A stretch of 37,989 bases of DNA from an uncultured Alphaproteobacteria bacterium (GTDB taxonomy: Bacteria; Pseudomonadota; Alphaproteobacteria; Caulobacterales; Parvularculaceae): positions 1-37,989 of the forward strand of contig CADEDN010000032.1 in the NCBI GenBank assembly GCA_902826095.1, given 5' to 3'. The notes under the pieces are model-generated. The model did no database searches. It saw only the letters and a program-made list of their open reading frames with translations, and had not been told where the DNA came from. Below, piece by piece: positions 2,398 through 29,587 of the stretch. The position numbers and the translations under genes were made by a program. Position 1 is the first letter of the stretch. Each line of letters begins with the position of its first letter.

Positions 2398-3336
2398 ATG
2401 CCGCGCATCATCACCCTCACGCCGAACCCGACCTACGACTTCGCGGTCGACGCGCCGAAAGTCGAACCCAATCGTAAGCTCCGTTGCCTCAATCCGGCGA
2501 GCCATCCGGGCGGCGGCGGATTGAATGTCGCGCGCGCCGCGACGCGATTGGGCGCCGATACGCTGGCGATTTTCACGACGGGCGGGCTTTACGGCGCGGC
2601 GCTCAAGGGTCTCGTCGCAGAGGAGCACGTCCCGATGCGGACGATCGCGGTCGCCGGCGAGACGCGCCTCGCTTTTCATGTGCGCGACGTCGCGACGAAT
2701 GACGAGTACCGGTTCAATCTGCCGGGCGCGCCGATGGCGTCGTCGGAGCGCGCGGCGATGCTCGGCGCTGTCCGCGATGAAACGCGCGCGGGCGATTTTG
2801 TCGTCGGCTCGGGAAGCTTGCCGCCGATGCGGGACGACGGCGCGCAGGAGTCTTTCTGGGCGGACGTCGCCAGGGTCGCGAAATCGAATGGCGCGCGCTT
2901 TGTCCTCGACTCAATCAGCGGACTCGACACGGCGCTGAAGGAAGGCGCCTTCCTGCTGCGCCACAATGAACATGAATATCAGGGGCTCGCGGGCGGCGCT
3001 CTCAACTGGCCGGACGGGATCGCCGCCTTCGCGCAAGGCCTCGCGAAGAAAGGCGCCGCCGAGCGCGTCGTCATCACGCATGGCGGCGACGGCTCGGTGA
3101 TGGCGACGAAGGACGCTCTGATCTTCACCCCCGTGTTTCCGGTCCGCGCGCATAGCGCGGTCGGCGCCGGCGACAGTTTCGTCGCGGGCTTGGTTGTCGC
3201 CCTGTCGCGCGGGTCGGCGGACGCCGCCGCATTGCGATACGCCGCCGCCTGCGCCGCCGCCACGCGCCTTTCCAGCGGCACGTCGCTTTTCAGCAGGGAA
3301 GATGTCGAACGCCTTTATGCGTCCGGCGCCGCATAA
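2398..3336 (+). CDS. pfkB: PfkB-family phosphofructokinase / sugar kinase
   Basis: 312-residue ribokinase-fold kinase. It has both PfkB signatures: P-G-G-G-G-L-N-V-A-R-A near residue 38 and the ATP/catalytic loop S-A-V-G-A-G-D-S-F-V-A-G near the C-terminus, where the Asp is the catalytic base. The N-terminal T-L-T-P-N-P-T-Y-D, the K-L-R-C segment before the glycine motif and the G-T-S-L-F-S-R-E-D-V-E-R-L-Y-A end resemble Escherichia coli Pfk-2, so fructose-6-phosphate phosphorylation is the best guess; 1-phosphofructokinase or tagatose-6-phosphate kinase cannot be excluded. ATG 2398 has only a weak GGCGG before it. No other glycolytic gene is adjacent. The last about 20 codons have a diverged second copy at 4264-4332, beyond the outer membrane protein gene. 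Confidence 0.87.
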   Translation: MPRIITLTPNPTYDFAVDAPKVEPNRKLRCLNPASHPGGGGLNVARAATRLGADTLAIFTTGGLYGAALKGLVAEEHVPMRTIAVAGETRLAFHVRDVATNDEYRFNLPGAPMASSERAAMLGAVRDETRAGDFVVGSGSLPPMRDDGAQESFWADVARVAKSNGARFVLDSISGLDTALKEGAFLLRHNEHEYQGLAGGALNWPDGIAAFAQGLAKKGAAERVVITHGGDGSVMATKDALIFTPVFPVRAHSAVGAGDSFVAGLVVALSRGSADAAALRYAAACAAATRLSSGTSLFSREDVERLYASGAA

Positions 3337-3345
3337 ATCTCCGCT

Positions 3346-4056
3346 TTAGAATCGCCAGCGAACGCCGGCGCTTGCGGTGTAGCCGTCGATACGGCCGTCA
3401 TCGCGCGTCGTCGTCGGTCCCGAAAAGGCGACATCGACATTTGAAAACCTGAAATAACGGCCTTCGCCAAACAATTCGAGTCGGTCGGTCAATTCATAGG
3501 TCGCGCCGACCGCTGCATGTCCGGCGAATACGGTTTCGTCCGCCGAAGCGATCGGGCCCAGCGAGCCGCCGCTAAAAGCCTGGCTGGCGTCGAAGTCGAG
3601 AAATGCGGCGCCGGCGCCGCCGCCGATATAGGGGACGAGACGCTGATTATCGCTGAACCTCAGATCGGCGTAGGAGTTGAGATAGAGTGTCACCGCCGAC
3701 TGATCGCCGATTGTCTCTCCCCCGCCGGTGAAAACGAGATTCGACCCGTCGATGTCCGCGTCAATATAGCCGACCTCGATTTCGACGCGCGGCTGAATGA
3801 ACCCGAATATCCGCGTCGGCAACCGGTATCCGAGCGCGCCGCTGATCGTATAGCCAGTGTCGTATTCAAATTCAGTCTGGCCAAGGGGGCCGGTGAATTC
3901 GCTGTCATCCGCGAACACGCCGCCGCCGGATATTGAAACATAGGGCCCGGCGCGGCTCGAATTCGATTGCATCAGCTGACCCGCCGATGCGCCGGTCGCA
4001 AAAAAGACCGCCGCAATCGCGGCGCCGGTCGTCAAATTATGCTTTGTCGCTTTCAT
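3346..4056 (-). CDS. Outer membrane beta-barrel protein
   Basis: 236-residue exported protein. The N-terminus is a Sec signal peptide (K-A-T-K, hydrophobic core, cleavage around A-S-A/G-Q). The rest alternates polar and apolar residues with glycine/aromatic-rich strands and ends in G-V-R-W-R-F; a terminal Phe is the BamA recognition mark of outer membrane barrels. It resembles small 8-stranded OmpA/OmpW-like barrels (OMP_b-brl type). ATG 4056 is chosen because GAGGAC lies just upstream and the signal peptide starts there; the frame is open further to 4173. It is convergent with pfkB, with 9 bp between stop codons. A perfect GTGA-N6-TCAC palindrome lies about 100 bp upstream. The ligand, if any, is unknown; it may be structural. 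Confidence 0.82.
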   Translation of the reverse strand: MKATKHNLTTGAAIAAVFFATGASAGQLMQSNSSRAGPYVSISGGGVFADDSEFTGPLGQTEFEYDTGYTISGALGYRLPTRIFGFIQPRVEIEVGYIDADIDGSNLVFTGGGETIGDQSAVTLYLNSYADLRFSDNQRLVPYIGGGAGAAFLDFDASQAFSGGSLGPIASADETVFAGHAAVGATYELTDRLELFGEGRYFRFSNVDVAFSGPTTTRDDGRIDGYTASAGVRWRF

Positions 4057-4159
4057 CGTTTTGTCCTCATCTCGCGCTTGATGTCGTTTCCGCGGCGCGG
4101 AACCTTCATTGCGAGGAAGACTTTGCCTGAAGGCCCGATAAACCGCCTTTGACAAGCGA

Positions 4160-4173
4160 GTGATCGCGATCAC
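4160..4173. promoter_or_regulatory. CRP/FNR-like palindrome upstream of the outer membrane protein gene
   Basis: Perfect 14-bp palindrome GTGATCGCGATCAC, i.e. GTGA-N6-TCAC, which is the core spacing of CRP-family sites (TGTGA-N6-TCACA). It is centred 110 bp before the start codon at 4056 on the minus strand. No convincing -35/-10 pair could be placed, so the site rests on the palindrome alone. Confidence 0.4.
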
Positions 4174-4263
4174 CGATGAGCGAGGCGCGTCGTGAGGCCG
4201 AATGTCGACCGTCCGGCGACCTAATCGAGTTCCGGCAGGCGGCGTTGCATGCGCGCCGCCCAG

Positions 4264-4332
4264 ACGCGCCTTTCCAGCGGCGCGTCGCTTTTCAGCAAGG
4301 AAGACGTGGACCGGCTTTACGCTTCGCCGTGA
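4264..4332 (+). pseudogene. Remnant of a second pfkB-like 3' end
   Basis: Twenty-two codons plus TGA that match the last part of the intact pfkB gene at 3262-3336. Over the first 63 nt I count 54 identical positions, and 7 of the 9 differences fall in third codon positions. The peptide T-R-L-S-S-G-A-S-L-F-S-K-E-D-V-D-R-L-Y-A-S-P parallels the PfkB terminus. Upstream, 4239-4263 may be a shortened, frame-disrupted match to the preceding alanine-rich segment; beyond that similarity is lost. The fragment lies between the barrel gene and the 3' end of the convergent hydrolase (stop at 4336-4338). The third-position bias suggests it descends from a once-selected paralogue rather than from a recent copy. 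Confidence 0.75.
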
Positions 4333-4335
4333 GGC

Positions 4336-5784
4336 CTAAAATTTCGGCTCGAAGGACGGCGCGTCGACGATGATTTCTCTTTCAGAAATTTCTTCGCCGC
4401 GCATGAATTTGCCGATCGTTTCCGTGATCTGCGGCGACAGCATGAAGAGATTGTGCCCGGCGTTCGCGACAGTCACCGTCGTCAGATCGCGCAGGCCCGC
4501 GACCGCCGCCATTTGCTCCTTGGGATAGGTGCGCCCGTCGAGCGTGCCGATCAGCAGCAAGGTCGGGACTGCGCTATTCGGCGCGCTGCGGAATTCATCG
4601 CCGAGATCGAGATCGAGCGCGCCTGCAAGCTGCGGCATCGGATAGTTCAGGAGATCGGCAAGGAGCGCGGTTTCAGCTTCCTTCTCGATGCGGGCGAGGC
4701 GTTCGGCGCCGACGCCCGACGCGACATCCATAGCGAGCGGCATCAGGCGGAACGATTCCGGCGCGCCAGGCGTGATAAAACGGCCGATGAGCGCAGCGAC
4801 CGGATCGATTATGCCGGCGTCGACCGCTAGATAGAGCATGAGAAGGCGTGCCGCGCCCTCCGGATCGGCGATCGAGGCGCTCGCAGCCATCTGCATCACT
4901 TCCTTCGTGAGCAGCATGTCGGCGGCGCCGTTTTGCGTCGGCACGCGCATCATCACCGGCGCCGCATCGAGCTTGGCATGGACGCGCCGCATCAGCGCCA
5001 TGATGTCGGGATAGGCCGCCTTCGCCGCCGGCTCCCTGTCTATCGCCGTCTGAAGGCGGTCAAAATAGGCGTCGGTCTCGGATGGAAGCTTGACAGTCTG
5101 GTCGAGACCTTCGGCGCCGGTCAGCACCATTTTGTCGATGCGCGGTCCCATTTCCCTGACGGCGGCGAGGGCGAGATGCGTGCCATAGGAAATTCCCCAG
5201 AGCGTGATTTTCCTCGCGCCCAGATGAGCGCGAAGCGCGTCGAGGTCGCGCGCGCTTTCGACGGTCGTATAGCCGGCCGGATCAAACCCCTGCGCCCGCC
5301 AATAGGCGCCGCACTGTTCCGCCGCCTGGCGCAGGAGCGCTTTCAGTTCCGCCTTCGCGACCTTGCGGTCGACGGGAATGACGATTTCCGATGTGCATTC
5401 GGGCGCGGCTTCCGAGAAGCCCGTCCCGCGCTGGTCGAGGGCGATCACGTCGCCGAATTCGCGCATCGCCATGAACAAGGGAAAGCGCTCGCCTCCTGCG
5501 GCGCCGACGCCGGAGCCGCCCGGACCGCCGGCAAGGTAGACAATCGGCGCGCCGGGTTTGGCGCCGGTCGCCGGGAAGCGGACATAATGGATGTCAATCA
5601 GACGGCTCGCGGGATCGGTGCGGTTCTCCGGGACCGTCACGACGCCCCGGAACGAGTCGACCTTTTCTCCGCTCTGCGCTTCGAAGACATAGGCTGTTTC
5701 GGAGGGGGGTGTTTTCGAGGGCGACGTCGCACAGGCGCTAAGCGCGCAAAGGGAAAATGCGACGACGAGGAATCGGCTTTTCAT
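4336..5784 (-). CDS. Lipoprotein alpha/beta hydrolase (TAP / proline iminopeptidase-like)
   Basis: 482-residue protein with a lipoprotein signal: hydrophobic stretch then L15-S16-A17-C18, so it is probably anchored in the outer or inner membrane facing the periplasm. It has the alpha/beta-hydrolase marks of the tripeptidyl/prolyl aminopeptidase (TAP-like) group: G-G-P-G-G-S-G oxyanion segment near 86-92, D-Q-R-G-T-G near 117-122, nucleophile elbow G-I-S199-Y-G-T-H, Asp416 in L-I-G-T-L-D-G-R, and His444 in N-A-G-H-N-L-F. The likely role is removal of N-terminal residues from peptides, though esterases share this fold. ATG 5784 has only a weak GGA before it. It is divergent from the LytTR membrane regulator starting at 5920, which could control it. 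Confidence 0.86.
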   Translation of the reverse strand: MKSRFLVVAFSLCALSACATSPSKTPPSETAYVFEAQSGEKVDSFRGVVTVPENRTDPASRLIDIHYVRFPATGAKPGAPIVYLAGGPGGSGVGAAGGERFPLFMAMREFGDVIALDQRGTGFSEAAPECTSEIVIPVDRKVAKAELKALLRQAAEQCGAYWRAQGFDPAGYTTVESARDLDALRAHLGARKITLWGISYGTHLALAAVREMGPRIDKMVLTGAEGLDQTVKLPSETDAYFDRLQTAIDREPAAKAAYPDIMALMRRVHAKLDAAPVMMRVPTQNGAADMLLTKEVMQMAASASIADPEGAARLLMLYLAVDAGIIDPVAALIGRFITPGAPESFRLMPLAMDVASGVGAERLARIEKEAETALLADLLNYPMPQLAGALDLDLGDEFRSAPNSAVPTLLLIGTLDGRTYPKEQMAAVAGLRDLTTVTVANAGHNLFMLSPQITETIGKFMRGEEISEREIIVDAPSFEPKF

Positions 5785-5919
5785 TGAGCGTCCAACGGGT
5801 TGCTAACGCCGTCGATCTGGCCCGTCGTGCGGCGCAAATCACGCAGATTTCGGCCGGCGGCGCCGGATTTCCGCCGAGCGGCGGTGAATGGCGGCGGCAA
5901 ATCGGCTACCGGTCGCGCC

Positions 5920-7401
5920 ATGCGGTTTCTCTTCGGCGCAGTCTGCTTGATCTTCATCCACCTCCTCGGTCCTGCGGCGGCGGAGACGCTGCATGCGGGG
6001 GCGCTTGCGGTCTGCGGTCCAGGGGACGAAACGCCGCCCGATGAGGGCGCCGAATGCGATCAGACGACGATCGGCGCCGTCGATCCGCAGGGACGCGACA
6101 TCTGGATCCGCGGCGTCATCACCGCGCCGAAGGGTTTCGCCGACCATGGCCCCGTCGGCCTCTTCATCGCCGCCAAGGCATCGAGCGAGGTTTACTTGAA
6201 CGGCGTCCGGCTCGGCGCGAATGGGGCGCCTGGCGCCGCCAAGGCCCTTGAGTCGCCGGGACGCATGGACGCGGTTTTCCCGGCGCCGGACGGCCTCGTG
6301 CGCGCAGGCCCGAATGAGGTCGCCGTCCGCCTGTCGTCACACCATGGCTATCTGAAGCTGGGGCGGCCGGTGCACTGGATCGCGCTCGCCCCTTACGTCG
6401 ACCCGACGGCGGAAAGACTGAAATTCATGTGGCCGTCGCTCGTCGCGCTCGGCGTCATCTTGTCGGGCGCTCTCTATTTCGCCGTCGTCGCGGCGACCGG
6501 CGCTGACCGGCGCGACCCGATTCTCCTGTCGCTCCTGTCGCTCTTCGCCGCCGGGCAGCTCGTCGTCGAGGTCTCACGCAGCCTCTTCGCCTATCCCTAC
6601 CCTGTCCATGATCTCCGGCTGATCGCGATCGTCGTCATGTCGGCCGGGTTCGGACTGACTCTCGCCGCGTTCGTCATTTCGAAATTCGTCGTCACAGGGA
6701 AATTGCGGGCGCTCGCCGCCGTCGCATTGCTCACAGCCCTCACGATCGTCTTCGCACAGGGCTTTGACGCCAAAGCGGGATTTTCCGTTCTCGCCTCAAC
6801 CATCGCCAGCGCGGCGCTCTCGGCTGGCGCAGCTCTCCGCGGCGACAAGCAAGGCGCCGTCTACGCGGCGGCGCTTATTGTTTTCGCCGCATCGATCGTG
6901 TTGTTTCGAGGCGCCTTTCTCGACGCCGTCTTTTTCTTTGAAGTCGCGGCGCTGCTGCTCGTTCTCTTCGCGGCGCAGGCGATGACGCTTGAGCGCGAGC
7001 GGCGCGAGAGCGCCCTCGAGCGCGCGCGCTCGCATGAACTCGAAGCAGCGCTTGAACGCGCCAGCGAGAGCGACAAGCCGGCGGTGATTCGCGTCAACGG
7101 CGCGGGCGCCGTCAACGTCGTTCAGGCCGGCGACATCACGCATTGCAAAGGCGCCGGCGACTATGTCGAGCTTCACCTCGCGGACGGTCGCCATATCCTC
7201 CACAATGGCGCGCTCGCGCAGCTTGAGACGGAGCTGCCGCCCGCCTTCCTGCGCGTTCACCGGTCCTTTATTGTCAATACGAAGTTCGTGAAAACGCTGA
7301 CGCGGGAAAGCTCCGGCGTCGGCGCGCTTGCCTTGTCGAACGGCGCGGAAGTGCCGGTCAGCCGGCGGATCATGCCGAAAGTGCGGAACGCGCTTGCGTA
7401 A
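5920..7401 (+). CDS. 7TMR-DISM-like membrane protein with C-terminal LytTR DNA-binding domain
   Basis: 493-residue predicted one-component membrane regulator. Residues 1-21 form a signal peptide. About 25-165 is a periplasmic beta-rich segment with V-Y-L-N-G-V-R-L-G and N-E-V-A-V-R-L motifs like the DISM/jelly-roll sensor of 7TMR-DISM receptors. About 170-355 holds seven hydrophobic segments. A charged coiled-coil-like linker (E-R-E-R-R-E-S-A-L-E-R) follows, then a LytTR domain at about 389-493 with G-D-Y-V-E-L-H, F-L-R-V-H-R-S-F-I-V-N and a C-terminal P-V-S-R-R. LytTR domains bind promoter repeats, so DNA would have to come to the membrane. The frame is open from 5800, but ATG 5920 gives the signal peptide. 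It is divergent from the lipoprotein hydrolase and convergent with the serine-hydrolase operon. The target is unknown. Confidence 0.85.
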   Translation: MRFLFGAVCLIFIHLLGPAAAETLHAGALAVCGPGDETPPDEGAECDQTTIGAVDPQGRDIWIRGVITAPKGFADHGPVGLFIAAKASSEVYLNGVRLGANGAPGAAKALESPGRMDAVFPAPDGLVRAGPNEVAVRLSSHHGYLKLGRPVHWIALAPYVDPTAERLKFMWPSLVALGVILSGALYFAVVAATGADRRDPILLSLLSLFAAGQLVVEVSRSLFAYPYPVHDLRLIAIVVMSAGFGLTLAAFVISKFVVTGKLRALAAVALLTALTIVFAQGFDAKAGFSVLASTIASAALSAGAALRGDKQGAVYAAALIVFAASIVLFRGAFLDAVFFFEVAALLLVLFAAQAMTLERERRESALERARSHELEAALERASESDKPAVIRVNGAGAVNVVQAGDITHCKGAGDYVELHLADGRHILHNGALAQLETELPPAFLRVHRSFIVNTKFVKTLTRESSGVGALALSNGAEVPVSRRIMPKVRNALA

Positions 7402-7421
7402 CGCTCTTCTTAGGCCATGCT

Positions 7422-9089
7422 TCAGCTGAAGCGCCGGACAAAGGGCGTTCCGGAAAACAGCATCACTTGCGAGCGCCCGTTCACGAATCCCTCGAATTTC
7501 ACGCGCTCGGGCGATGTCTCATCGCCGATCCGCCACTCCCCGTTTTTCATCGCCGTCAGCAATTCTGCGTTGCCGATCCAGAGCTTGCCGTCGCGCGCGT
7601 AGACGTAAAGCGGGCCCGCCCAGCGGTCGTCATTATCATAGCGCCCGGCGAGCGCGCGAAGCGCGTCGGACGCCGGCGGCTTATAGCCGATCGAAGGATC
7701 GGCGAGATACTCCCTCTCGCCGACCCAGGCGCGCGCGGCCTTCTCGTTTTCGATTTCGACAACGACGCCGGTGACGGCGAAATCGGGGTCAGTCGTCGCG
7801 AACAATGACCCTGCGGCCTGCTGGAGCGCGCTGTCGCGGCCGTCCTTCAGCAGGCGGAGCTTGCCGCCGTCGGCGGCGATCTCGAAACTATCGCCATTCG
7901 CCGCGGTGAAGCGGCCGACATGCTGCTCCGGCTTTTCGAGCGCGATCATCGTCGATTTCGGCGCCGGCGCCGGAAGCTGCTCCTTGACGGCCCTCAAGAG
8001 CTCGCATGCGTAGGTCGAGACGCGCACGGGCCGGTAGTTCAGCGAATAATGAATGTTCCCCGATGCGAACGCCGCGACGCCCGCCGCCGCGTCGACATGC
8101 AGCGCCGAGCAGAACGAAATCATGCCGCCCGTGTGGTGGAGGTATTTGCGCCCGTCGATCTCGATGCGCGCGATCCCATTGCCGTATTTCGCGCCGGGCC
8201 CCCAGCCGTCCGCCGGATCGGCGAGAAATCGCTTCGCCGTTTCATCCGAAAAAACCGGCGCGCCCTTCCCGTCCGCGAGATCGAGAAGAAAGCGCAAGAA
8301 CTTCGCCATGTCGCCGCCGGTCGCAGCGATGCAGCCGGCGGGACTGTCGGAATCGACCCATGGCGTCGGCGTCATCGCGCCTGGACGCGGGTTCAAGCGA
8401 TCGGTCAGCGCCGGCTCATAGCCTTGCGCATAGCGATGACGATCCGCGACATGCATCGCCGCGACCGACTCGGCCATGTCGATTTTTTCAAGCACCCGCT
8501 TGCGAACGAGGTCTTCATAGAGTTCGCCGCTCGCCGCCGCGGCGATCATGCCGGCGAGCGCGTAACCGGCGTTCGAATAGGACCAGCCCTTGCCGGGCTC
8601 AAAGCCCGTCCTCAGGCCGCCTTGCGGAAAAATCGCCGAATCCGCCGGCAATCCCGAAGTATGGTTGAGGAGATGCTGGAGCGTGATCGCCTTTCCGCCG
8701 TATACGGACAATCCATTCAGCGTGTCCTCAAGTCTTGCGTCCGGAGAGAGTTTTCCTTCATCGATCAGCGAATAGGCCGCGAGCGCCGTGAACATTTTCG
8801 AGATCGAGCCGATCTGGAACAGATGATCGGGGCCGACCGGAATTTTCCTTTCGACATCGGCGAGGCCTGAGCGCACGAAACCTTCAAACCCGTCGCGTGT
8901 GACGACGGCGACCGTCATCCCGGGAACGCCCCAGTCGGCGCGGTGCTGTTCGACATAGGCTTCAAGCGCCTTCAGCGCTTTCTTTTCGGCCTTGCCTGCG
9001 CCGCGCGCCTCACTTGTCGCGCCGGCGCTTGACGCAAGTCCCGCCGCGATCGCCGCGCCGCCGATGAATATTCTGCGATTGACGTCCAT
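7422..9089 (-). CDS. Serine hydrolase, beta-lactamase/class C fold, Tat signal
   Basis: 555-residue protein. The N-terminus N-R-R-I-F-I-G-G plus a hydrophobic run is a twin-arginine signal. The catalytic domain has the S-x-x-K motif S95-I-S-K98 and the Y-S-N motif at 171-173, with N-H-T-S-G-L-P between them, typical of class C beta-lactamases, esterases and D-aminopeptidases (Pfam Beta-lactamase family). About 150 C-terminal residues form a lipocalin-like beta-rich extension as seen in D-aminopeptidase-type members. ATG 9089 follows GGAGGGG at good spacing. It is last in an operon after the asparaginase-like gene and another serine hydrolase, with 59 bp to the previous stop. The substrate is probably a peptide or ester in the periplasm; beta-lactam resistance should not be assumed. 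Confidence 0.87.
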   Translation of the reverse strand: MDVNRRIFIGGAAIAAGLASSAGATSEARGAGKAEKKALKALEAYVEQHRADWGVPGMTVAVVTRDGFEGFVRSGLADVERKIPVGPDHLFQIGSISKMFTALAAYSLIDEGKLSPDARLEDTLNGLSVYGGKAITLQHLLNHTSGLPADSAIFPQGGLRTGFEPGKGWSYSNAGYALAGMIAAAASGELYEDLVRKRVLEKIDMAESVAAMHVADRHRYAQGYEPALTDRLNPRPGAMTPTPWVDSDSPAGCIAATGGDMAKFLRFLLDLADGKGAPVFSDETAKRFLADPADGWGPGAKYGNGIARIEIDGRKYLHHTGGMISFCSALHVDAAAGVAAFASGNIHYSLNYRPVRVSTYACELLRAVKEQLPAPAPKSTMIALEKPEQHVGRFTAANGDSFEIAADGGKLRLLKDGRDSALQQAAGSLFATTDPDFAVTGVVVEIENEKAARAWVGEREYLADPSIGYKPPASDALRALAGRYDNDDRWAGPLYVYARDGKLWIGNAELLTAMKNGEWRIGDETSPERVKFEGFVNGRSQVMLFSGTPFVRRFS

Positions 9090-9148
9090 GAAGCCCCTCC
9101 GGTTCCGCCCAGCATAAGGCGAGTTGGCGAATGGGAAAGCGGGGAGCG

Positions 9149-10288
9149 CTATTGCGGCTCCTCGCCGTATTCCCACCACCAGGGCGTTCTTGTCTCGCCG
9201 AGAACAAAACGGACGAGCCTCGAATAGATCCTTTCCGCCCGCACGCTGTTCGACAAGAGGACGATGCAGCGCAAGCGCCGCTCCTGACAGACGACCATGT
9301 TGCCGGTCCAGTCATTGTGGCCGCCTTTGAACCATGCGAGCCCGGCGTCGTCCTGGTAGGTGACGAGACCCAAACCCGCCGAAAGGCCTATCTCCGGTCC
9401 GCGCGGGTCCGTCCAATCCAAATGGGAGGGAAATTGTCGCATCGACCTAATGTCGAGCTGCGGTCGCACAAGTTCGGCCCGCGCGTCTTTCGACAGGCCT
9501 TCGCCGCGAATGACGGCCGACCACAATTTCGACTGGTCGGATATCGTCGTATCCATCGACCCCGCCGCACTTGGGCGCAATCGTTCGTCATGCGGCTCGA
9601 AGGCGCCGTCAATCGCGTAGCCGTCCGCAAGGTCGTCGGCGAAGTCGGCTCGCCACTGAAGGCTCGTCCTTGTCAAGCCGAACGGGCCGAAAATGCGCCG
9701 CTGCGCTTCTGCTTCGAGGGCAAGCCCAAGACCTTCCTCGAGCGCGAGCTGAAGTATGTAAAAGCCCTCGCCGGAGTAGCCGTAACGAGCGCCGGGGTTC
9801 GCCCGGAATCGGAGTTTCCCGTCGTCCTCGATCCAGCGGAAATTCGCAAATCCGGTGGAGTGATTGAGCACATGCCGCGCCGTCAAAAGCCGCCAGCGCT
9901 CATCCGTCGCGAGATCGGCGAATTCCTCGTAGTCCGGCAGCGGTTTCGGCAGATATGCCGCGAGCGGCCTGTCAAGGTCGAACGAGCCTTCATCGACAAG
10001 CTGCAGCACGAGGTAAGCGATCATCGGTTTGGTGAGCGACGCGCCGTACATCACGGTGTCGGGCGTCAGCGGCAGCCGGCGTTCGACATTTCTCAAACCG
10101 TACGCGGCCGTGTGCACGACCTCGCCGCCGTCAATGACGGCGAGCGCAAGTCCCTTGACATCTTCTTCCGACATCAGGCGACGCGTCTCGGCGTCGATCG
10201 CCGGCAGAGCAGGAATCACAGGCGCGGCGCCATGGGCGCAAGCGGCGGCGAATGACATCGCCATCAGGGCAATGATCCTGGCTCTCAT
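9149..10288 (-). CDS. Serine hydrolase, beta-lactamase fold
   Basis: 379-residue exported protein. It has a short hydrophobic N-terminus with a possible lipid-attachment Cys17 (A-A-A-C, a weak lipobox). The nucleophile motif is S84-L-T-K87, N-H-S-T-G-F lies downstream, and the second motif is Y-S-G-E-G-F rather than Y-x-N, a substitution found in many esterase/peptidase members of this family. The C-terminal G-G-H-N-D-W-T-G supplies the H-x-G-like element. Its ATG at 10288 comes one base after the TGA of the upstream asparaginase-like gene (10290-10292), so translation is probably coupled. It is only distantly similar to the serine hydrolase that follows, so it is not a recent duplicate. The substrate is unknown. 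Confidence 0.85.
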   Translation of the reverse strand: MRARIIALMAMSFAAACAHGAAPVIPALPAIDAETRRLMSEEDVKGLALAVIDGGEVVHTAAYGLRNVERRLPLTPDTVMYGASLTKPMIAYLVLQLVDEGSFDLDRPLAAYLPKPLPDYEEFADLATDERWRLLTARHVLNHSTGFANFRWIEDDGKLRFRANPGARYGYSGEGFYILQLALEEGLGLALEAEAQRRIFGPFGLTRTSLQWRADFADDLADGYAIDGAFEPHDERLRPSAAGSMDTTISDQSKLWSAVIRGEGLSKDARAELVRPQLDIRSMRQFPSHLDWTDPRGPEIGLSAGLGLVTYQDDAGLAWFKGGHNDWTGNMVVCQERRLRCIVLLSNSVRAERIYSRLVRFVLGETRTPWWWEYGEEPQ

Positions 10289-22821: not shown

Positions 22822-23075
22822 ACCTTCCGCGCGGCTTTAGAGTGTTTGCCAAGTGAGCCGGCGCCATTCGGGCGGCGGTCGACCATGAGGATCATTTGGT
22901 GTTTCTTGACCCATCGACGCTGACTTTGCCGGCCGCGCTTCGCGGAACGGCGGGCGGCGGGCGACAAAGTGAATTCGCCAGGCTTTTGGCGCGACGAAAA
23001 GCAGGGCTTTTCGCGCTGGAACCGGCATGGAAAGCCAGAAATTCAGAAGGGGGCGCCGGCGAAAAGCCGGGTGTT

Positions 23076-26000
23076 TCAGTGAAAGTCGCGCGACTTCGGC
23101 AAGATCGCGCGCAGGCGCTCCGTCTGCTCGGCGCGTTTTTGATCGCGCGCGCCGCGCGGATCGGCGCGCTCGCCGCCATGCCGGAACTCGTCGGCCGGCG
23201 CGTAGATTTCGGTCTCCGGGCCGTGCTCTTCGGACAGCGCCGCGAGCCCTGCCGTCAAATCCTCAAGCCGTGCGGCGATGAGGTGAATGACCTCGCCGTC
23301 GCGCTGGATATGGCCGCGGACGCCCATCAGCCTTGCGCCGAGCACGACGCGTCGGAACGCTTCGAACACTTTCGGCCAGATGATGATGTTAGCGGTGCCG
23401 GTTTCGTCTTCAAGCGTTGCGAAGATGACGCCCGACGCCGTGCCCGGCCGCTGGCGCACAAGAACGAGCCCCGCGACAGCGACGCCAGCGCCGTTCGCTG
23501 CGCGCGCGAGCGCCGCGCAGGGCCGGAAGGATTTTTCGGCGAGCGTCCGCCGCAGGAACGCCAGCGGATGCGCGCGCAGCGAAAGGCGGAGCGTCCGGTA
23601 ATCGTGGACCACTTCCTCGCCGACCGGCATCCGCGGCAGGGCGCGCTCGCTTTCCTGCTCAGCGGCGCGCGCGGCGGCGAGCAGCGGCGGCGCGTCTTCG
23701 GCGATCCCGTGGTCCAGCGCCTTCGCCGCCCACAGCGCGTCGCGCCGCGACAGGCCGAGCGAGGCGAAAGCGTCGGCGTCGGCCAGGCGTTCGACGACGG
23801 CGCGCGACACGCCGGTCCTCGCCCAGAAGTCCCTGACGCTGTCGAAGGCGACGCCGTCGTCATTGCGTCGCCGCGCGATCCGGCGCGCGTCTTCCTCCTT
23901 CAGTCCCTTGATCTGCCGGAGCCCGAGGCGGACCGCATGCGCGTGGCGCATTTCGCCGATCATCGACCAATGCTGTTCGGCGACGCGCGGGCGCGAGAAG
24001 CGCTCTTCGAGCGCGCAGTCGAAATCCGAATGATTGACGTCGGGACCGCGGATCTCGACGCCATGCTCCTTCGCGTCGCGGACAAGCTGCGCCGGCGCGT
24101 AAAACCCCAGAGGCTGCGCGTTCAGCATCGCCGCGCAAAAAACGTCCGGATACCGGCATTTAAGCCAGCAGGAGACGTAGACGAGAAGCGCGAACGAGGC
24201 GGCGTGGCTTTCCGGAAAGCCGTATTCGCCAAAGCCCTCGATCTGCTTGAAGCAGCGCGCCGCGAAATCGGCGCCATAGCCGCGCGCCTTCATGCCTTCG
24301 ATCATCTTCTCGGCGAACAGATGGATCGCGCCGGTCTTGCGGAATGTCGCCATGGCGCGCCGCAATTTGTCGGCTTCGGACGGGGTGAAGCCGGCGGCGA
24401 CGATCGCGATTTTCATCGCCTGCTCCTGAAAGAGCGGCACGCCGAGCGTCTTGCCGAGAACCTGTTCAAGCTCCTTCGACGGGAATTCGACTTTCTCTTC
24501 GCCGCGCCGGCGTCGCAGATAGGGATGCACCATGTCGCCCTGGATGGGCCCGGGGCGGACGATCGCGACCTCGATGACGAGATCGTAGAAATTCCGCGGG
24601 CGAAGGCGCGGCAGCATCTGCATTTGCGCGCGGCTTTCGATCTGGAAGACGCCGAGCGTGTCGGCGCGGCAGATCATGTCGTAGACGGCGCGCTCCTCGG
24701 CCGGGACCGTCGCGATGTCGAGACCGATCCCGTAGGCGCGGCGCAGCATCGCGAAGGCCCTGGCGATGCAGGTGAGCATGCCGAGCCCCAGAACATCGAC
24801 CTTGATGATGCCAAGCGTGTCGAGATCGTCCTTGTCCCATTCGACGAAAGTGCGATCGTCCATCGCCGCATTGCCGATCGGGATCAGCTCATCAAGCGGG
24901 CCCTCGGTGATCACAAAGCCGCCGGTGTGCTGCGAGAGGTGGCGCGGAAACCCTTTGATCTCGCGCGCGAGTTCGAGCGTCAGCGCGATCGTCGGCTCGT
25001 TCGGATCAAGCCCCGTATCCTCGGCGACGGCGTCGCGGATCGCGCCGTCGCGCCACCCCTTGGCCATGCCGGAAAGCGCGCTGACGGCGTCCTCGGACAA
25101 TCCCATCGCCTTGCCGACCTCGCGCAGAGCCGAGCGCGAGCGATAGGTGATGACGGTCGCGGCGATGCCGGCGCGCGTCCGGCCGTATTTGCGGTAGATA
25201 TATTGGATCACCTCCTCGCGCCGCTCATGCTCGAAATCGACGTCGATGTCGGGCGGCTCGCGGCGTTCGGCGGAGATGAACCGCTCAAAGAGGACGTCCA
25301 TCCGCGCAGGGTCGACCGAGGTGATCCCGAGCGCGTAGCAGACCGCCGAATTCGCCGCCGAGCCGCGGCCCTGGCAGAGAATTCCTTCGTCGCGCGCATA
25401 GCGCACGATGTCGTAGACGGTGAGGAAATAGGGCGCGTACTGAAGATCGCCGATGATCGAAAGCTCGGCGACGACCTGCTGGCGCACGCGCTCGGGCGCG
25501 CCGTTCGGATAGCGGCTCTGAAGGCCGAGAAGGGCGAGCCTTTCAAGCTCGGCCTGCGGGCTCGCGGAAAGGCCAGCCGATTCCTTCGGGTATTCATAGC
25601 AAAGCTCGTCAAGCGAGAACCGGCAGCGCCCGGAAAGATGCAAGGTCTCCTCGACCGCGCCCGGATGATCGGCGAAAAGCCGCGCCATTTCGGCGGGGGC
25701 CTTAAGATGCCGCTCGGCGTTGGCGCTAAGAAGAAACCCGGCTTTGTCGATCGTCGTCTTTTCGCGGATGCAGGTCAGCACGTCGGCGAGCCGCCGGCGC
25801 GACGGCGCGTGATAGAGCGCGTGATTGACCGCAAGAAGGGGAACGCGCGCGGCTCTTGCAAGGCAGGCGAGTTCATTGAGGCGGGCGGCGTCGGCGGGCC
25901 CGAACGCCCGCGCGCCGGCGAGCCAGACGTTTCCGGGAAAGGCTTCGCGAAGCCGGGCGAGAAGCTTTGCTCCCCCGCTGGCGGGGGAGCTGTCGAGCGA

Positions 26001-26489
26001 AACGAGACTGAGGGGGGCTGTGTCGATGCGTTCTACGGAATTACACGCCTCCCCGCTGTCGGCTTCGCCGACCTCTCCCCTGCTGCGCGGGGGGGAAGGG
26101 CGCTCACGCATAAGCGCCGCCGCGAAAAGCTGTCCCTCGCCGAATTCCAGCGCGTCGTCGAGCGTCAGATGACAGGCGCCTTTCGGCGCGCGCCTTTTGC
26201 CGCGCGTCAGCAATCGGCAGAGCCGCCCGTAAGCGGCCCGATCCGTCGGGTAAGCGAGAAGCTCCGCCTCCTGATCGACAAGGCGCAGGCGGACGGCCGG
26301 GACGAAGGGGACGCCCGCCTCCTTCGCGGCCGCATGCGCGCGCACGATTCCGGCGAAGGAATTGACGTCGGCGAGCGCGATCGCGGCGTGGCCGAGCGCG
26401 GCCGCCGCCGCCGCCATCTCTTCAGGGTGCGAAGCGCCGAGAAGAAAGGAGAAATTCGAAAAAGCGGCGAGTTCGGCGTAGCGGGTCAT
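23076..26489 (-). CDS. dnaE2: Error-prone DNA polymerase DnaE2 (ImuC)
   Basis: 1137-residue C-family polymerase that performs SOS translesion synthesis with ImuA and ImuB. It has an N-terminal PHP domain beginning F-S-F-L-L-G-A-S-H-P-E-E, then C-T-I/L-like D-V-L-T-C-I-R-E-K and H-L-K-A-P-A-E-M, the palm aspartates D414 and D416 in P-D-I-D-V-D-F, the D-V-L-G-L-G-M-L segment with the third acidic residue, and a C-terminal OB fold (A-G-L-V-L-V-R-Q-R-P-G-T-A). Residues about 127-174 are a low-complexity P/S/G-rich insertion encoded by a palindromic repeat, which helps explain why the protein is longer than the roughly 1030-1090 usual in the family. The ATG at 26489 has a weak ribosome binding site. 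imuB, its usual neighbour, is separated from it by hicAB on the other strand. Confidence 0.95.
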   Translation of the reverse strand: MTRYAELAAFSNFSFLLGASHPEEMAAAAAALGHAAIALADVNSFAGIVRAHAAAKEAGVPFVPAVRLRLVDQEAELLAYPTDRAAYGRLCRLLTRGKRRAPKGACHLTLDDALEFGEGQLFAAALMRERPSPPRSRGEVGEADSGEACNSVERIDTAPLSLVSLDSSPASGGAKLLARLREAFPGNVWLAGARAFGPADAARLNELACLARAARVPLLAVNHALYHAPSRRRLADVLTCIREKTTIDKAGFLLSANAERHLKAPAEMARLFADHPGAVEETLHLSGRCRFSLDELCYEYPKESAGLSASPQAELERLALLGLQSRYPNGAPERVRQQVVAELSIIGDLQYAPYFLTVYDIVRYARDEGILCQGRGSAANSAVCYALGITSVDPARMDVLFERFISAERREPPDIDVDFEHERREEVIQYIYRKYGRTRAGIAATVITYRSRSALREVGKAMGLSEDAVSALSGMAKGWRDGAIRDAVAEDTGLDPNEPTIALTLELAREIKGFPRHLSQHTGGFVITEGPLDELIPIGNAAMDDRTFVEWDKDDLDTLGIIKVDVLGLGMLTCIARAFAMLRRAYGIGLDIATVPAEERAVYDMICRADTLGVFQIESRAQMQMLPRLRPRNFYDLVIEVAIVRPGPIQGDMVHPYLRRRRGEEKVEFPSKELEQVLGKTLGVPLFQEQAMKIAIVAAGFTPSEADKLRRAMATFRKTGAIHLFAEKMIEGMKARGYGADFAARCFKQIEGFGEYGFPESHAASFALLVYVSCWLKCRYPDVFCAAMLNAQPLGFYAPAQLVRDAKEHGVEIRGPDVNHSDFDCALEERFSRPRVAEQHWSMIGEMRHAHAVRLGLRQIKGLKEEDARRIARRRNDDGVAFDSVRDFWARTGVSRAVVERLADADAFASLGLSRRDALWAAKALDHGIAEDAPPLLAAARAAEQESERALPRMPVGEEVVHDYRTLRLSLRAHPLAFLRRTLAEKSFRPCAALARAANGAGVAVAGLVLVRQRPGTASGVIFATLEDETGTANIIIWPKVFEAFRRVVLGARLMGVRGHIQRDGEVIHLIAARLEDLTAGLAALSEEHGPETEIYAPADEFRHGGERADPRGARDQKRAEQTERLRAILPKSRDFH
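25968..26111 (-). repeat. Composite palindromic repeat inserted in-frame in dnaE2
   Basis: About 140 bp inside the PHP-domain coding region. One end is a perfect hairpin, GCTCCCCCGC (25969-25978), TG, GCGGGGGAGC (25981-25990); the other holds GTCGGC-TTC-GCCGAC (26058-26072) flanked by C-rich and G-rich tracts. Translated it gives R-P-S-P-P-R-S-R-G-E-V-G-E-A-D-S-G-E-A...P-L-S-L-V-S-L-D-S-S-P-A-S-G-G-A, the recognisable peptide of an interspersed palindromic repeat seen in many alphaproteobacterial genomes, and unlike DnaE2 sequence. The frame remains open through it. Confidence 0.85.
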
Positions 26490-26495
26490 AAGGGC

Positions 26496-26532
26496 TTGAC
26501 CCGCTCCGAGGGTATGTGTATATATTTACACA
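26496..26532 (+). promoter_or_regulatory. hicAB promoter with palindromic operator
   Basis: TTGACC (26496-26501), a 17-bp spacer and TATATA (26519-26524) form a near-consensus housekeeping promoter. The -10 is embedded in TGTGTA-TATATT-TACACA (26515-26532), a perfect 6-bp inverted repeat that is a good candidate HicB operator for autoregulation. The -35 lies only 7 bp from the dnaE2 start codon (26489), so a bound repressor would sit over any dnaE2 leader. Confidence 0.8.
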
Positions 26533-26554
26533 AAAATCGAAACGGGGGAGCTGG

Positions 26555-26740
26555 TTGGACAGTCGGGAGATTATCCGAAAGCTCACTGGCGCCGGCTGGA
26601 TCGAGCACAGCCAGAAAGGGTCGCACAAACACTTCAAGCACCCCGAAAGGCCCGGAAAGATTACGGTCCCGCATCCGCGCAAGGATCTGCCGCCGAAGAC
26701 CGTCAAATCGATCCTGCGTGCAGCCGGACTCGCCGATTGA
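26555..26740 (+). CDS. hicA: HicA toxin (mRNA interferase)
   Basis: 61-residue HicA-family RNase with a double-stranded RNA-binding-like fold, which cleaves mRNA when HicB is lost. The sequence D-S-R-E-I-I-R-K-L-T-G-A-G-W-I, then Q-K-G-S-H24-K-H-F-K-H-P and I-T-V-P-H-P, K-D-L-P-P-K-T-V-K-S-I-L-R-A-A-G-L is the full family pattern, and His24 in G-S-H is the conserved catalytic residue, so the toxin looks intact. The start is taken as TTG 26555, after GGGGGAG and giving the normal N-terminus; an in-frame ATG at 26516 lies inside the operator and would add 13 residues. It is followed 21 bp later by hicB and is divergent from dnaE2. Confidence 0.9.
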   Translation: MDSREIIRKLTGAGWIEHSQKGSHKHFKHPERPGKITVPHPRKDLPPKTVKSILRAAGLAD

Positions 26741-26761
26741 AGAAAAAGGAGGAGTCGCGTC

Positions 26762-27169
26762 ATGAGGAGTTACATCGCCGCTCTTGAGCCGGACGGGCAG
26801 GGCGGCTTCGGCGTCTTCTTCCCCGATCTCCCCGGCCTTGCTTCGGCGGGCGACACCATGGACGAAGCGATGCGGAACGCGCTCGAGGCTCTTTGCGGTC
26901 ATGTCGCCGCGCTCAGGGACGACGGCGACCCGGTTCCGCCGCCGCGGTCGATCGACGCTATTTTCAGTCAGCCTACGGATGATATAGAAGGATGCCTTCT
27001 TGTGGCAATTCCCCTTCTTGAAACGGGCGGCGCGCAGGTGCGCGTCAATATCTCCGGCTCTCGCTTCGAGATCGACGCGATCGACGCTGCGGCGCGTCGG
27101 CGCGGGCTGACGCGGTCGGCGTTTCTTCTTCAGGCGGCGCGCGACAAGATCGCCTCCGAGACGGCTTGA
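26762..27169 (+). CDS. hicB: HicB antitoxin
   Basis: 135-residue antitoxin. The N-terminal HicB fold has Y-I-A-A-L-E-P-D-G-Q-G-G-F-G-V-F-F-P-D-L-P-G and a following A-G-D-T-M-D-E-A-M-R-N-A-L-E-A-L, which neutralises HicA. The C-terminal about 40 residues (V-R-V-N-I-S-G-S-R-F-E-I-D-A-I-D-A-A-A-R-R-R-G-L-T-R-S-A-F-L) form a ribbon-helix-helix DNA-binding domain, so this is an autoregulating HicB; the palindrome at 26515-26532 is the likely target. AAGGAGGAG precedes ATG 26762. The stop codon is 5 bp from that of imuB on the opposite strand. Confidence 0.92.
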   Translation: MRSYIAALEPDGQGGFGVFFPDLPGLASAGDTMDEAMRNALEALCGHVAALRDDGDPVPPPRSIDAIFSQPTDDIEGCLLVAIPLLETGGAQVRVNISGSRFEIDAIDAAARRRGLTRSAFLLQAARDKIASETA

Positions 27170-27174
27170 GGGCG

Positions 27175-28731
27175 TCATGCGAAAAATCCGTGCAGGAACC
27201 ATTTGGCGCCGTCCTCAAGGCGGCCCTCGCGGAAGACCCAGTAGCGGCGGCCCTTTTCATCCTCGATCCGGTAATAGTCGCGCGAGAAATCCTCGCCGCG
27301 CCGCCACTCGCCGAGAATGCGCTCCGGCCCCGCCGCGCGCGCCGTCCGATAGGCGACGCGCCGCCAGCGAAACTGGGCGGGCGGCCCGTCCGGCGCGAGC
27401 GCGGTCGCAAGGATCGGCTCGGGCGGATCGAGAAGCGAGAGCGGGCGCATCGCGCTTTCATTCGTCCACGGAACAGGCGGGAGAAGCGCGCTCGCGCGCG
27501 CCTCGGCGCGCTCTGGAATATGCGAGGCGACCGGCGACAGCCGAAAGACGGCGCGCCCCAGATGATTGGCGAGGCGGTCGCGCAGGGCGTCGACCTCCTC
27601 GCCGGCGCCGGTCTCGCGCGCCTGCGCCTTCGCCGCGTCGATCCGGGCCGTCGCAAAAGCGCTAAGGCGGAAGCTTTCAAAACCGAAGCCGGGATCGACG
27701 GGGCGCTCGCCCTTTTCAAGCTTAAGCCGCAACAGCCGCAGGATCGTTTCCGGCGCGCGCGAGGGCGCGCCAAGCGCGATGCGCACGGTCTCAAAACTCA
27801 TATCCATGCGAAAGAGCGAGAAATCGAAGCGGCGCGCGCCTTGTCCCGCGGCCTCGAGCTTTCGCGCAAGACGCGCCGCGAGATCGTCCGCGAGATGCAG
27901 CGTCGCGTCGATCGTCATCAGCGGCTCGGCGAGAACGGCGCTGGCGGAAAAATCCGCCGGCGGCGCGATCGGCGCGATCGGCTCGAAGAGGGCGCCGGTC
28001 GCCTGATCGAGGCGCTTCAGCAAGGCTTCGCCAAACCGCTTGCCAAGCTCCTTTCTGGGCCGCGCCATGACGGCGCCGACTGTTTTAAGGCCGAGGCTTT
28101 TGAGATCGTCGACGATGTCGGCCTCAAGCCGCAGCGCGGCGACGGGAAGCGGCGAAAGGGCGGATCGTTCGCCGCCGGACGGAATGACGGGGAAGGCGCC
28201 GAACGCCGCCGTCGCCCAGGCGCAGCCGGGCGTTCCGGCGATCGCGGCGCGCGCGTCAACGCCGATCCCGCGCAACCGGTTCGCCGCATCCTCGGCGAGC
28301 CGCGCTTCGCCGCCGAAGAGATGCGCGACCCCCTCAATGTCGATGAAGGCCGCGCCGAACTCCGGCGAGCCGACAAGCGGGGAATAGCGCAGCAGCGCGG
28401 CGAGAAGTCTTTGAAAGTCCCGCCTGTCCGCGGCGCGGTCGATCGCCGCGATATTGAGCGCGGGGAGAAGCGCGCGCGCCTCGGCGAGGGGCTGGCCTTC
28501 ATAAAGACCTTCCGCCGTCGCCGCGCGATCGAGCGCGGCGATCTTCAGCGCGTTTTCGGTTTTCTCATAGAGCGCGAGCGGCGCGGCCGGCCCCTTCATG
28601 CGCCGATGATGAAGATCGGCGGACAAATGCGGGAAGACGAGCGCCAAAATCCGGCGCTGGCTGGAAGCCTTGGGTTGATTCCGGCGCGGCGGCGGCGCCT
28701 CGGTCGGGGAGAACAAATCGTTTCTCGTCAT
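27175..28731 (-). CDS. imuB: ImuB, Y-family polymerase-like mutasome protein
   Basis: 518-residue Y-family-like protein that links DnaE2 to the beta clamp during SOS mutagenesis. It starts with about 30 extra residues, then R-R-I-L-A-L-V-F-P-H-L-S-A-D; the usual catalytic D-M-D-x-F is absent, and F-I-D-I-E-G-V-A-H-L-F-G-G stands where active enzymes have S-x-D-E, as expected for ImuB, which is not catalytic. The C-terminal R-P-L-S-L-L-D-P-P-E-P-I and Y-W-V-F-R-E-G-R-L...W-F-L-H-G-F-F-A are diagnostic. ATG 28731 (GGAG 7 nt upstream) is preferred over TTG 28746. Its first 167 bp overlap the end of imuA in another frame. The stop codon faces hicB. Confidence 0.93.
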   Translation of the reverse strand: MTRNDLFSPTEAPPPRRNQPKASSQRRILALVFPHLSADLHHRRMKGPAAPLALYEKTENALKIAALDRAATAEGLYEGQPLAEARALLPALNIAAIDRAADRRDFQRLLAALLRYSPLVGSPEFGAAFIDIEGVAHLFGGEARLAEDAANRLRGIGVDARAAIAGTPGCAWATAAFGAFPVIPSGGERSALSPLPVAALRLEADIVDDLKSLGLKTVGAVMARPRKELGKRFGEALLKRLDQATGALFEPIAPIAPPADFSASAVLAEPLMTIDATLHLADDLAARLARKLEAAGQGARRFDFSLFRMDMSFETVRIALGAPSRAPETILRLLRLKLEKGERPVDPGFGFESFRLSAFATARIDAAKAQARETGAGEEVDALRDRLANHLGRAVFRLSPVASHIPERAEARASALLPPVPWTNESAMRPLSLLDPPEPILATALAPDGPPAQFRWRRVAYRTARAAGPERILGEWRRGEDFSRDYYRIEDEKGRRYWVFREGRLEDGAKWFLHGFFA

Positions 28732-29458
28732 GACGCCACTCCACAAGAAAGGATTGATCGGGAGAAAGCCGGCAGAAACTCGCCGCCTTCTCGAGGGTCA
28801 CGAACCAGCGCGGCGAACCCGGCGCCTTCGCGTCGAACGGCGCCGGCCCGCTCGCGCGCGCCTCGACGCGCCAGCGCATGGAAGCGCCCGTCGGCGCCGC
28901 TTCGGAGGATGAATGCTGCGATCGCACAATGATCGGCGTCGCGCCGGAATATCCCGCCGCGAGGTGAAGCCGGCGGCTCGCCGTCAAGGTGAGGCGCGGC
29001 GCCGCGCCGGATACGATGAAGAGCGCCGCCGCGACCCCTTTCGTCCGCGCCGCCTCCTCCGCCGCGAAGAGGGCGTTCTCTTCCGTCCTTGCACGGATAA
29101 AGAACGCGCGCGCCGGATCGAGCCCGAAGGCCGAGAGCCCGCGCGCGGAAAGCGCGCCCGACCGCGCCGCCTCATGCGCGCGCTCGATGAAGACAAGCGC
29201 GCCGCCGCTCTCGCAAAGCCGCGCCGCAAGACCGAGCGCAAAGCCGAGCGCGGCGGGCGCGTCGCGATAATCGGGGCTGCGCATCTCATGAAGGACGCCC
29301 CCTTGCGCCGCGACGCCGGGCCAGAGGGCGAGCGCGCGAGCGCGCGCCGGCTCGTCCGCCAGCGGGGGAAGCGGCGCGGCGCGCGCGCCGCGCTCGATAT
29401 CGGCGATATGATCCCTCAGCCGCGCGAGCACGCCCGCGCGGACCATCGTCCGGTCCAT
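28565..29458 (-). CDS. imuA: ImuA, SOS mutasome accessory protein
   Basis: 297-residue RecA-like/SulA-related protein, the first gene of the SOS mutagenesis cassette. It has the expected L-R-D-H-I-A-D-I-E-R-G N-terminus, G-G-V-L-H-E-M-R, A-L-G-F-A-L-G-L-A-A-R, F-G-L-D-P-A-R-A-F-F-I-R-A-R-T-E-E-N-A-L-F-A-A-E-E-A-A-R, R-R-L-H-L-A-A-G-Y-S-G-A-T and R-W-R-V-E-A-R-A blocks. After the usual end near V-E-W-R-H-D-E-K-R-F-V-L-P it continues about 50 residues, which overlap imuB. The start ATG 29458 (AGGG adjacent) has an alternative ATG at 29446. It is preceded by a promoter with a LexA box. A hairpin (GGGCGACG/CGTCGCCC, 29482-29501) lies in the leader. Confidence 0.88.
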   Translation of the reverse strand: MDRTMVRAGVLARLRDHIADIERGARAAPLPPLADEPARARALALWPGVAAQGGVLHEMRSPDYRDAPAALGFALGLAARLCESGGALVFIERAHEAARSGALSARGLSAFGLDPARAFFIRARTEENALFAAEEAARTKGVAAALFIVSGAAPRLTLTASRRLHLAAGYSGATPIIVRSQHSSSEAAPTGASMRWRVEARASGPAPFDAKAPGSPRWFVTLEKAASFCRLSPDQSFLVEWRHDEKRFVLPDRGAAAAPESTQGFQPAPDFGARLPAFVRRSSSSAHEGAGRAARAL

Positions 29459-29557: not shown

Positions 29558-29587
29558 ATTAGAACAAAGAAGGAACAAAAGAGTCAA
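29558..29587 (-). promoter_or_regulatory. SOS promoter of imuA with LexA box
   Basis: On the minus strand TTGACT (29587-29582) and TCTAAT (29563-29558) are separated by 18 bp. Within the spacer lies GTTC-N7-GTTC (29576-29562), the direct-repeat LexA box characteristic of alphaproteobacteria. The predicted transcript start is about 90-95 bp before imuA. No second such box was found near dnaE2. Confidence 0.88.

Follow-up and report, generated by a model that had tools for sequence, protein, structure and literature searches.

The SOS mutagenesis cassette imuA-imuB-dnaE2 in the window, by which we mean the whole analysed stretch of 37,989 nucleotides, is interrupted between imuB and dnaE2 by a HicAB toxin-antitoxin module on the opposite strand (Table 1). 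As assembled in the draft genome, the architecture imuA-imuB-[hicBA]-dnaE2 is certain, and the recurrence of an antiparallel HicAB module in a mutasome operon is well supported by a second case on a plasmid of Rhodoplanes serenus. We give somewhat better than an even chance to the explanation that an ordinary autoregulated HicAB module entered, in antiparallel orientation, at the point where imuB and dnaE2 overlap as ATGA, which would have left a noncontiguous SOS operon that is read through and on which HicB may form a roadblock. That the module came in by a single insertion, that the operon is read through, that HicB binds and that a roadblock forms is what we infer from the sequence.

Table 1 Features of the interrupted locus in the window and of its counterpart on Rhodoplanes serenus plasmid 1
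Feature	Position	Strand	Remarks
dnaE2, error-prone polymerase, 1137 aa	23076..26489	-	NCBIfam NF004225, 1414 bits
Inverted repeat, predicted RNA hairpin	26477..26508	-	pairs part of dnaE2 start codon
Right ATGAC copy	26485..26489 (26489-26485)	-	its ATG starts dnaE2
Antisense open frame, 230 codons	26486..27178	-	from ATG overlapping imuB stop to TGA overlapping dnaE2 ATG
hicA promoter-like site TTGACC-17-TATATA	26496..26524	+	-35 box 6 nt from dnaE2 ATG
HicB-type operator palindrome TGTGTATATATTTACACA	26515..26532		overlaps hicA -10; 25 nt from dnaE2 ATG
hicA toxin, 61 aa	26555..26740	+	TTG start after GGGGGAG; His24 present; Pfam PF07927; PDB 4c26, E 9.1e-16
hicB antitoxin, 135 aa	26762..27169	+	Pfam PF15919; PDB 6g1n, E 4.9e-16
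dnaE2-ward promoter-like site TTGCCA-18-TATCAT	26979..27008	-	inside hicB; 10/12 matches
Left ATGAC copy	27174..27178 (27178-27174)	-	TGA gives the imuB stop; ATG is the relatives' dnaE2 start position
imuB, longest ORF	27175..28746	-	Pfam IMS and IMS_C; tblastn to relatives
imuA	28565..29458	-	NCBIfam NF033429; adjoins imuB upstream; ImuA tblastn matches, same place in relatives
LexA-type box GTTCCTTCTTTGTTC	29562..29576	-	upstream of imuA; exact GTTC-N7-GTTC
Rhodoplanes dnaE2, annotated error-prone polymerase	2622-6047	-	
Rhodoplanes hypothetical gene	6046-6261	+	between dnaE2 and hicA; annotation
Rhodoplanes HicA	6311-6502	+	
Rhodoplanes HicB	6512-6925	+	
Rhodoplanes ImuB, Y-family polymerase	6963-8444	-	
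Rhodoplanes imuA candidate	8434-9303	-	ImuA match at 40%

Genes of the interrupted cassette

The genes imuA, imuB and dnaE2 all lie on the minus strand in the kept order of the cassette, and hicA and hicB stand between imuB and dnaE2 on the plus strand. The product of dnaE2 matches the Pol III alpha domains of Pfam. That of imuA matches ImuA_translesion with 37.5 bits, which is under the cut-off of 150, and gave no match in the Pfam scan. As imuA overlaps the longest imuB ORF by 182 nt (28565-28746), we note that the true imuB start probably lies further inside this ORF. Within dnaE2, an in-frame insert in the PHP region (25965-26105) belongs to a palindromic interspersed repeat, for which 41 matches were listed in the same genome, this one included; the DnaE2 sequences of the five relatives shown in the alignment lack it.

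HicA is matched by the family HicA_toxin with 76.4 bits (cut-off 27), and HicB by HicB_lk_antitox with 93.3 bits over 123 of the 123 model positions; an NCBIfam scan at E 0.001 gave no match to either protein. hicB is adjacent to and downstream of hicA, and its C-terminal DNA-binding domain is present according to Pfam and to the alignment with chain 6g1n, which covers residues 6-129. His24 of HicA is in register with an alanine of PDB 4c26, which we take to be the H24A mutant. A sequence-only reading of this DNA had described an intact antiparallel HicAB between imuB and dnaE2, with His24 and the DNA-binding domain preserved; its coordinates were right to the base, and the Pfam matches and both structural alignments bear the description out. 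The module shares its toxin-first order, Pfam families and His24 with the HicAB type II systems of E. coli, S. meliloti, B. pseudomallei and Y. pestis (HicAB3), whereas it differs from them in lying antiparallel inside an SOS operon and in having a predicted operator that doubles as the region upstream of dnaE2. The same genome holds two further HicA matches (G000:C41:5785-5958 and G000:C1:262722-262841), one with an in-frame TGA and one partial.

Junctions and the empty site

The hicB stop (27167-27169) lies 5 nt from the imuB stop (27175-27177), and the hicA TTG start (26555) lies 65 nt from the dnaE2 ATG (26487-26489); these gene calls confirm the two distances that had been read from the sequence before. 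In nine of the ten nearest relatives on the DnaE2 tree (G001, G002, G003, G004, G011, G017, G019, G030, G038 and G052), the imuB stop and the dnaE2 start overlap as ATGA. The exception is G002, where imuB ends in TAA a few nucleotides before dnaE2. Several relatives carry the empty site as GCATGACCCG / ...TTCGCATGACCCG. Since ATGAC stands at both junctions in the window, the insert measures about 685 bp, beginning 6 nt ahead of the TTGACC -35-like box and ending 5 nt past the hicB stop. The 5-bp ATGAC flanks are possibly a duplication made on insertion. Against this, the match is only 5 bp long, and part of it is forced because both genes were kept, so that the imuB stop and the dnaE2 ATG had to survive. 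In the explanation we favour, a self-contained HicAB unit running from the -35 box to the hicB stop would have inserted antiparallel at the ATGA overlap, and ATGAC on both sides would have allowed imuB and dnaE2 to stay intact. The window thus shares with the imuA-imuB-dnaE2 SOS operon the three genes, their order and the LexA-type box before imuA, and differs from it in that the imuB-dnaE2 overlap is broken by 685 nt with an antiparallel gene pair.

That HicAB was merely misjoined between imuB and dnaE2 during assembly is scarcely credible. Although the genome is a 3.79-Mb draft in 58 contigs, the junctions coincide exactly with the ends of two ORFs, neither of which is disrupted, DnaE2 is well conserved (see below), and a matching layout is found on the complete Rhodoplanes plasmid.

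A second case on a Rhodoplanes plasmid

The best plasmid match of the window HicB is Rhodoplanes serenus plasmid 1 (NZ_LR026982.1, 53,767 bp, complete), from searches that took in the best 60 of 534 plasmid records with ImuB and the best 60 of 119 with HicB. The plasmid carries the layout imuA-imuB-[hicBA]-dnaE2 with hicBA antiparallel, as in the window. Both loci share gene order, orientation and a palindrome near the dnaE2 ATG, which on the plasmid is the variant TGTGTA-N6-TGCGCA at a distance of 23 nt. Upstream of the imuA candidate we saw by eye GAACAAATAAAGAAC, of the form GAAC-N7-GAAC. The two loci differ in that the plasmid hicA lies 222 nt beyond the operator-like palindrome, with repeats between them, in that the hicA-ward promoter match is weaker than that of the window, and in that the comparable antisense frame stops before dnaE2. 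The repeats between operator and hicA (L181, 5566-5787) are CGCGGCTTCACCGCCGCGG palindromes.

In trees of ImuB (26 rows) and DnaE2 (27 rows) the two loci stand apart: the neighbours of the window are G011 and G019, and that of Rhodoplanes is G085. Given the well-supported branches, the HicAB label must have changed at least twice. These changes favour separate gains of HicAB; one old gain followed by repeated losses needs more changes than two gains. The HicB tree (45 rows) joins the window and Rhodoplanes in 2% of bootstraps and its deep branches are weak, so that by this tree alone the two HicB proteins may come from one origin. Taken with the mutasome trees, the Rhodoplanes HicAB was probably acquired separately from that of the window.

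Distribution in relatives, class and phylum

The sequence-only reading had proposed a search of related taxa for imuB and dnaE2 separated by hicAB; none turned up in the 99 other genomes of the 100-genome set of relatives, own genome included, and the Rhodoplanes plasmid supplied the positive case. HicB of the window type occurs in six of these 99 genomes, at seven places, and HicA in 12; the eight genus mates among them have neither. Fetched flanks of the seven HicB places held no ImuB or DnaE2. A search across 385 class genomes, own included, found none of 43 other HicB places at a mutasome, with flanks of about 1.5-2 kb on each side, some ending at contig ends. With the Rhodoplanes HicB as query, 38 other places came up in 372 class genomes; each of them was one of the 43, and the flanks of the 22 loci newly named in this search held no mutasome genes. 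No match to ImuA, ImuB or DnaE2 lay within 6 kb of the two Paracoccus plasmid loci that are the next-best HicB matches. We also searched for a close donor of the module and found none, the best HicB identity being 54% (G459) and the best plasmid match 49% (Rhodoplanes).

Gaps between imuB and dnaE2 are approximate, as DnaE2 starts were extrapolated on the assumption that 37 residues of the window protein are missing in relatives. On this footing, 68 same-contig pairs in the relatives have a median estimated gap of -6 nt, the largest being 430 and three being over 150 (five further ImuB rows were unpaired). In the class sample of 230 genomes, 87 pairs have a median gap of 44 nt and 21 exceed 150 (10 unpaired). 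The phylum sample of 349 genomes has 102 with ImuB, own included; 86 loci were read, leaving out G753, G558, G781, G690, a piece in G512 and genomes read before. Of these, 70 were measurable pairs, some from genomes also in the class sample, and 16 were unpaired; eight gaps exceeded 150 nt, and the queries used on this sample, HicA, HicB and FitA/PIN, gave no match at E 0.001.

We examined the contents of gaps over 150 nt in three of three relatives and 15 of 21 class genomes (left out were G280, G286, G292, G245, G291 and G317). A codirectional pair of FitA-like antitoxin and PIN-domain toxin (VapBC-type) fills the gap in four class genomes of three families: G128 and G258, which belong to one genus, G127 and G302 (loci L156, L157, L158 and L160). 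Pfam was run on the proteins of G128, G302 and G127, and the PIN match of G128 is marginal (24.9 bits, cut-off 23.6). In G128, vapB starts 9 nt past the imuB stop and shares 4 nt with vapC, whose end falls about where dnaE2 starts. The gap of G127 has a second FitA-like ORF. Other gaps contain an antiparallel MerR regulator (G322, and G219 by likeness) or an antiparallel Uma2 protein (G229), these MerR and Uma2 loci being L154, L155 and L162, a DUF559 protein (G214) and a glyoxalase-like ORF named by eye (G077 and G089).

The hicA promoter and a candidate HicB operator

The promoter-like site of hicA has nine of 12 matches, or 10 of 12 with a spacing of 19. The palindrome over its -10 box belongs to the type TGTGTA-N2-8-TACACA. 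Of 33 other hicAB loci, 12 carry this type in the 110 nt before hicA, 17 carry a looser form there, and 16 are without even that. Letter shuffles of the same stretches gave on average 0.0 (strict) and 0.01 (looser) loci. The operator alignment consists of eight sequences chosen as clear cases. HicB binding over the -10 box is described for BpsHicB and YpHicB3 in an extract of PMC11594946, and the window likewise has an operator-like palindrome over the -10; S. meliloti HicB binds its own promoter region, according to an extract of PMC6327479. In the window and in Rhodoplanes alike, the predicted operator lies in the stretch that read-through to dnaE2 crosses. HicAB would retain its own promoter, with the predicted operator close to the dnaE2 start codon, and either HicB or RNA polymerase at PhicA could form a roadblock to the dnaE2 message. 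Gating of dnaE2 by HicB is a plausible hypothesis.

Transcription towards dnaE2

The box before imuA has the form GTTC-N7-GTTC, which we take to be the alphaproteobacterial LexA motif. Of 20 relatives' loci, 11 have an exact counterpart. In nine of nine of L097-L105, the nearest loci checkable, it lies no more than about 300 nt from the ImuA match, and in L108 and L109 it stands 700-860 nt before that match. The fetched stretches of the other nine (L106, L107 and L110-L116, that of L106 being without the upstream region) have no exact box. In the window, no exact box was found upstream of dnaE2 or at hicAB. A site with one mismatch inside hicB (26864-26878) was dismissed as chance because the window has 31 such sites and 35.1 are expected. 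As the box stands only before imuA, a dnaE2 message must cross hicBA on the antisense strand unless dnaE2 has a promoter of its own; this point of the earlier reading holds, also in view of the median gap in relatives. No terminator-like sites were found on the minus strand in 26400-27300. The imuA message probably still extends into dnaE2 by read-through.

The LexA-controlled message would then cross hicBA in antisense and continue into dnaE2, which amounts to a noncontiguous operon, and its transcription would yield antisense RNA to hicAB. A noncontiguous operon is described for S. aureus menE-menC-MW1733-ytkD-MW1731 in an extract of a review (PMC7154746). The window shares with it operon genes that flank an opposite-strand gene, and differs in that what interrupts the operon is a toxin-antitoxin pair that brings its own repressor. 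A point against the noncontiguous operon is that the sequence separating imuB from dnaE2 may go untranslated on that strand and so be open to Rho termination.

The promoter-like site inside hicB is possibly a LexA-independent promoter of dnaE2; shuffles of the 901 bases scanned give a mean of 0.2 sites of its quality. It suits the alternative that HicAB came to lie here by chance and that dnaE2 has a constitutive promoter of its own, for example 27008-26979, with no regulatory link between them. We regard this as possible, although clearly less probable than the read-through operon. That other unrelated genes also occupy imuB-dnaE2 gaps in the class fits with it, but the orientation and a similar operator position recur in two cases that both mutasome trees place apart, and the Rhodoplanes plasmid has nothing comparable towards dnaE2, its best promoter match being 8/12.

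The hairpin and the antisense frame at the dnaE2 start

The predicted hairpin over the dnaE2 start has -20.9 kcal/mol with a z of -4.46, and none of 200 shuffles is as stable. Counted by start position, the 38-kb window holds 22 perfect 9-bp hairpins with loops of 3-12; the hairpin is notable and not unique. One relative's junction, when folded, gave -16.1 kcal/mol and a z of -2.4. Together with 685 nt without known coding on the dnaE2 strand and the repeat insert in dnaE2, this strong hairpin speaks for a polar insertion, by which dnaE2 would be severed from SOS control and poorly expressed and the mutasome would be heading for loss. We find such a course distinctly unlikely, since, of the 266 columns in which the 21 other rows all agree, DnaE2 departs at one (range 0 to 14 across the 22 rows), and ImuB departs at none of 44. 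Both proteins are free of decay, although a very recent insertion would look alike.

The 230-codon antisense frame could keep translation coupled across the insert and limit Rho termination. It is weak evidence. We rejected it as a strong argument, as the probability that its coding parts are open is 0.29 under synonymous reshuffling with the window codon usage, and far longer antisense ORFs exist in the window, such as that at 22896-26765 (+, 1289 aa) over dnaE2. Long antisense frames are frequent in the GC-rich DNA of the window. Among 46 readable loci of 54 hicAB loci (L005, L132, L138, L168, L171, L173, L179 and L180 were dropped), five have the frame open throughout. At a GC of at least 0.60 (n=25), both embedded loci are open versus three of 23 free-standing ones, giving a Fisher p of about 0.03 calculated by hand and post hoc; two of the three open free-standing loci are near-identical Paracoccus loci.

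Discussion

The interpretation of the sequence-only reading as a whole is partly supported. The collision of transcripts, the tie between SOS mutagenesis and toxin release and the limit on mutagenesis that it suggested are still hypotheses, and the recurrence of the layout in another bacterium had escaped it. Its remark that no HicAB-gated mutasome had been described agrees with our search of the PMC literature, in which we found no description of hicA with dnaE2 or of hicAB with imuB; subscription papers mostly fall outside its scope. Among the PMC papers that combine imuB and dnaE2 with toxin-antitoxin, no title names such genes in the operon. Papers in PMC that combine imuB, dnaE2 and vapBC concern mycofactocin, as far as their titles go, and the extract of the main text of a gene-neighbourhood study (PMC3765255) is without the words toxin, PIN domain or HicA.

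A wider proposal joins the cases: toxin-antitoxin modules would land repeatedly at the imuB-dnaE2 junction and would then control mutagenesis by a HicB gate, an antisense-frame relay and FitA/PIN co-expression. HicB bound near the dnaE2 start would block the SOS message until the antitoxin is lost by degradation or by titration with HicA. In the window, the antisense frame, joined by ATGA at both ends, would be translated, and this would melt the dnaE2 hairpin and couple imuB with dnaE2, and the codirectional FitA/PIN modules would act as toxins co-expressed in the SOS response. We hold this proposal to be rather improbable.

The regulatory role of chromosomal toxin-antitoxin systems is disputed. 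If dnaE2 depends on HicB, error-prone replication would need both DNA damage and loss of the antitoxin, and the module would gain a concrete regulatory job. Even if HicAB is passive, the two antiparallel HicAB modules and the codirectional FitA/PIN modules form a natural series on how an operon survives an insertion on the opposite strand. The second case with the same layout makes toxin-antitoxin control of the timing of an error-prone polymerase testable.
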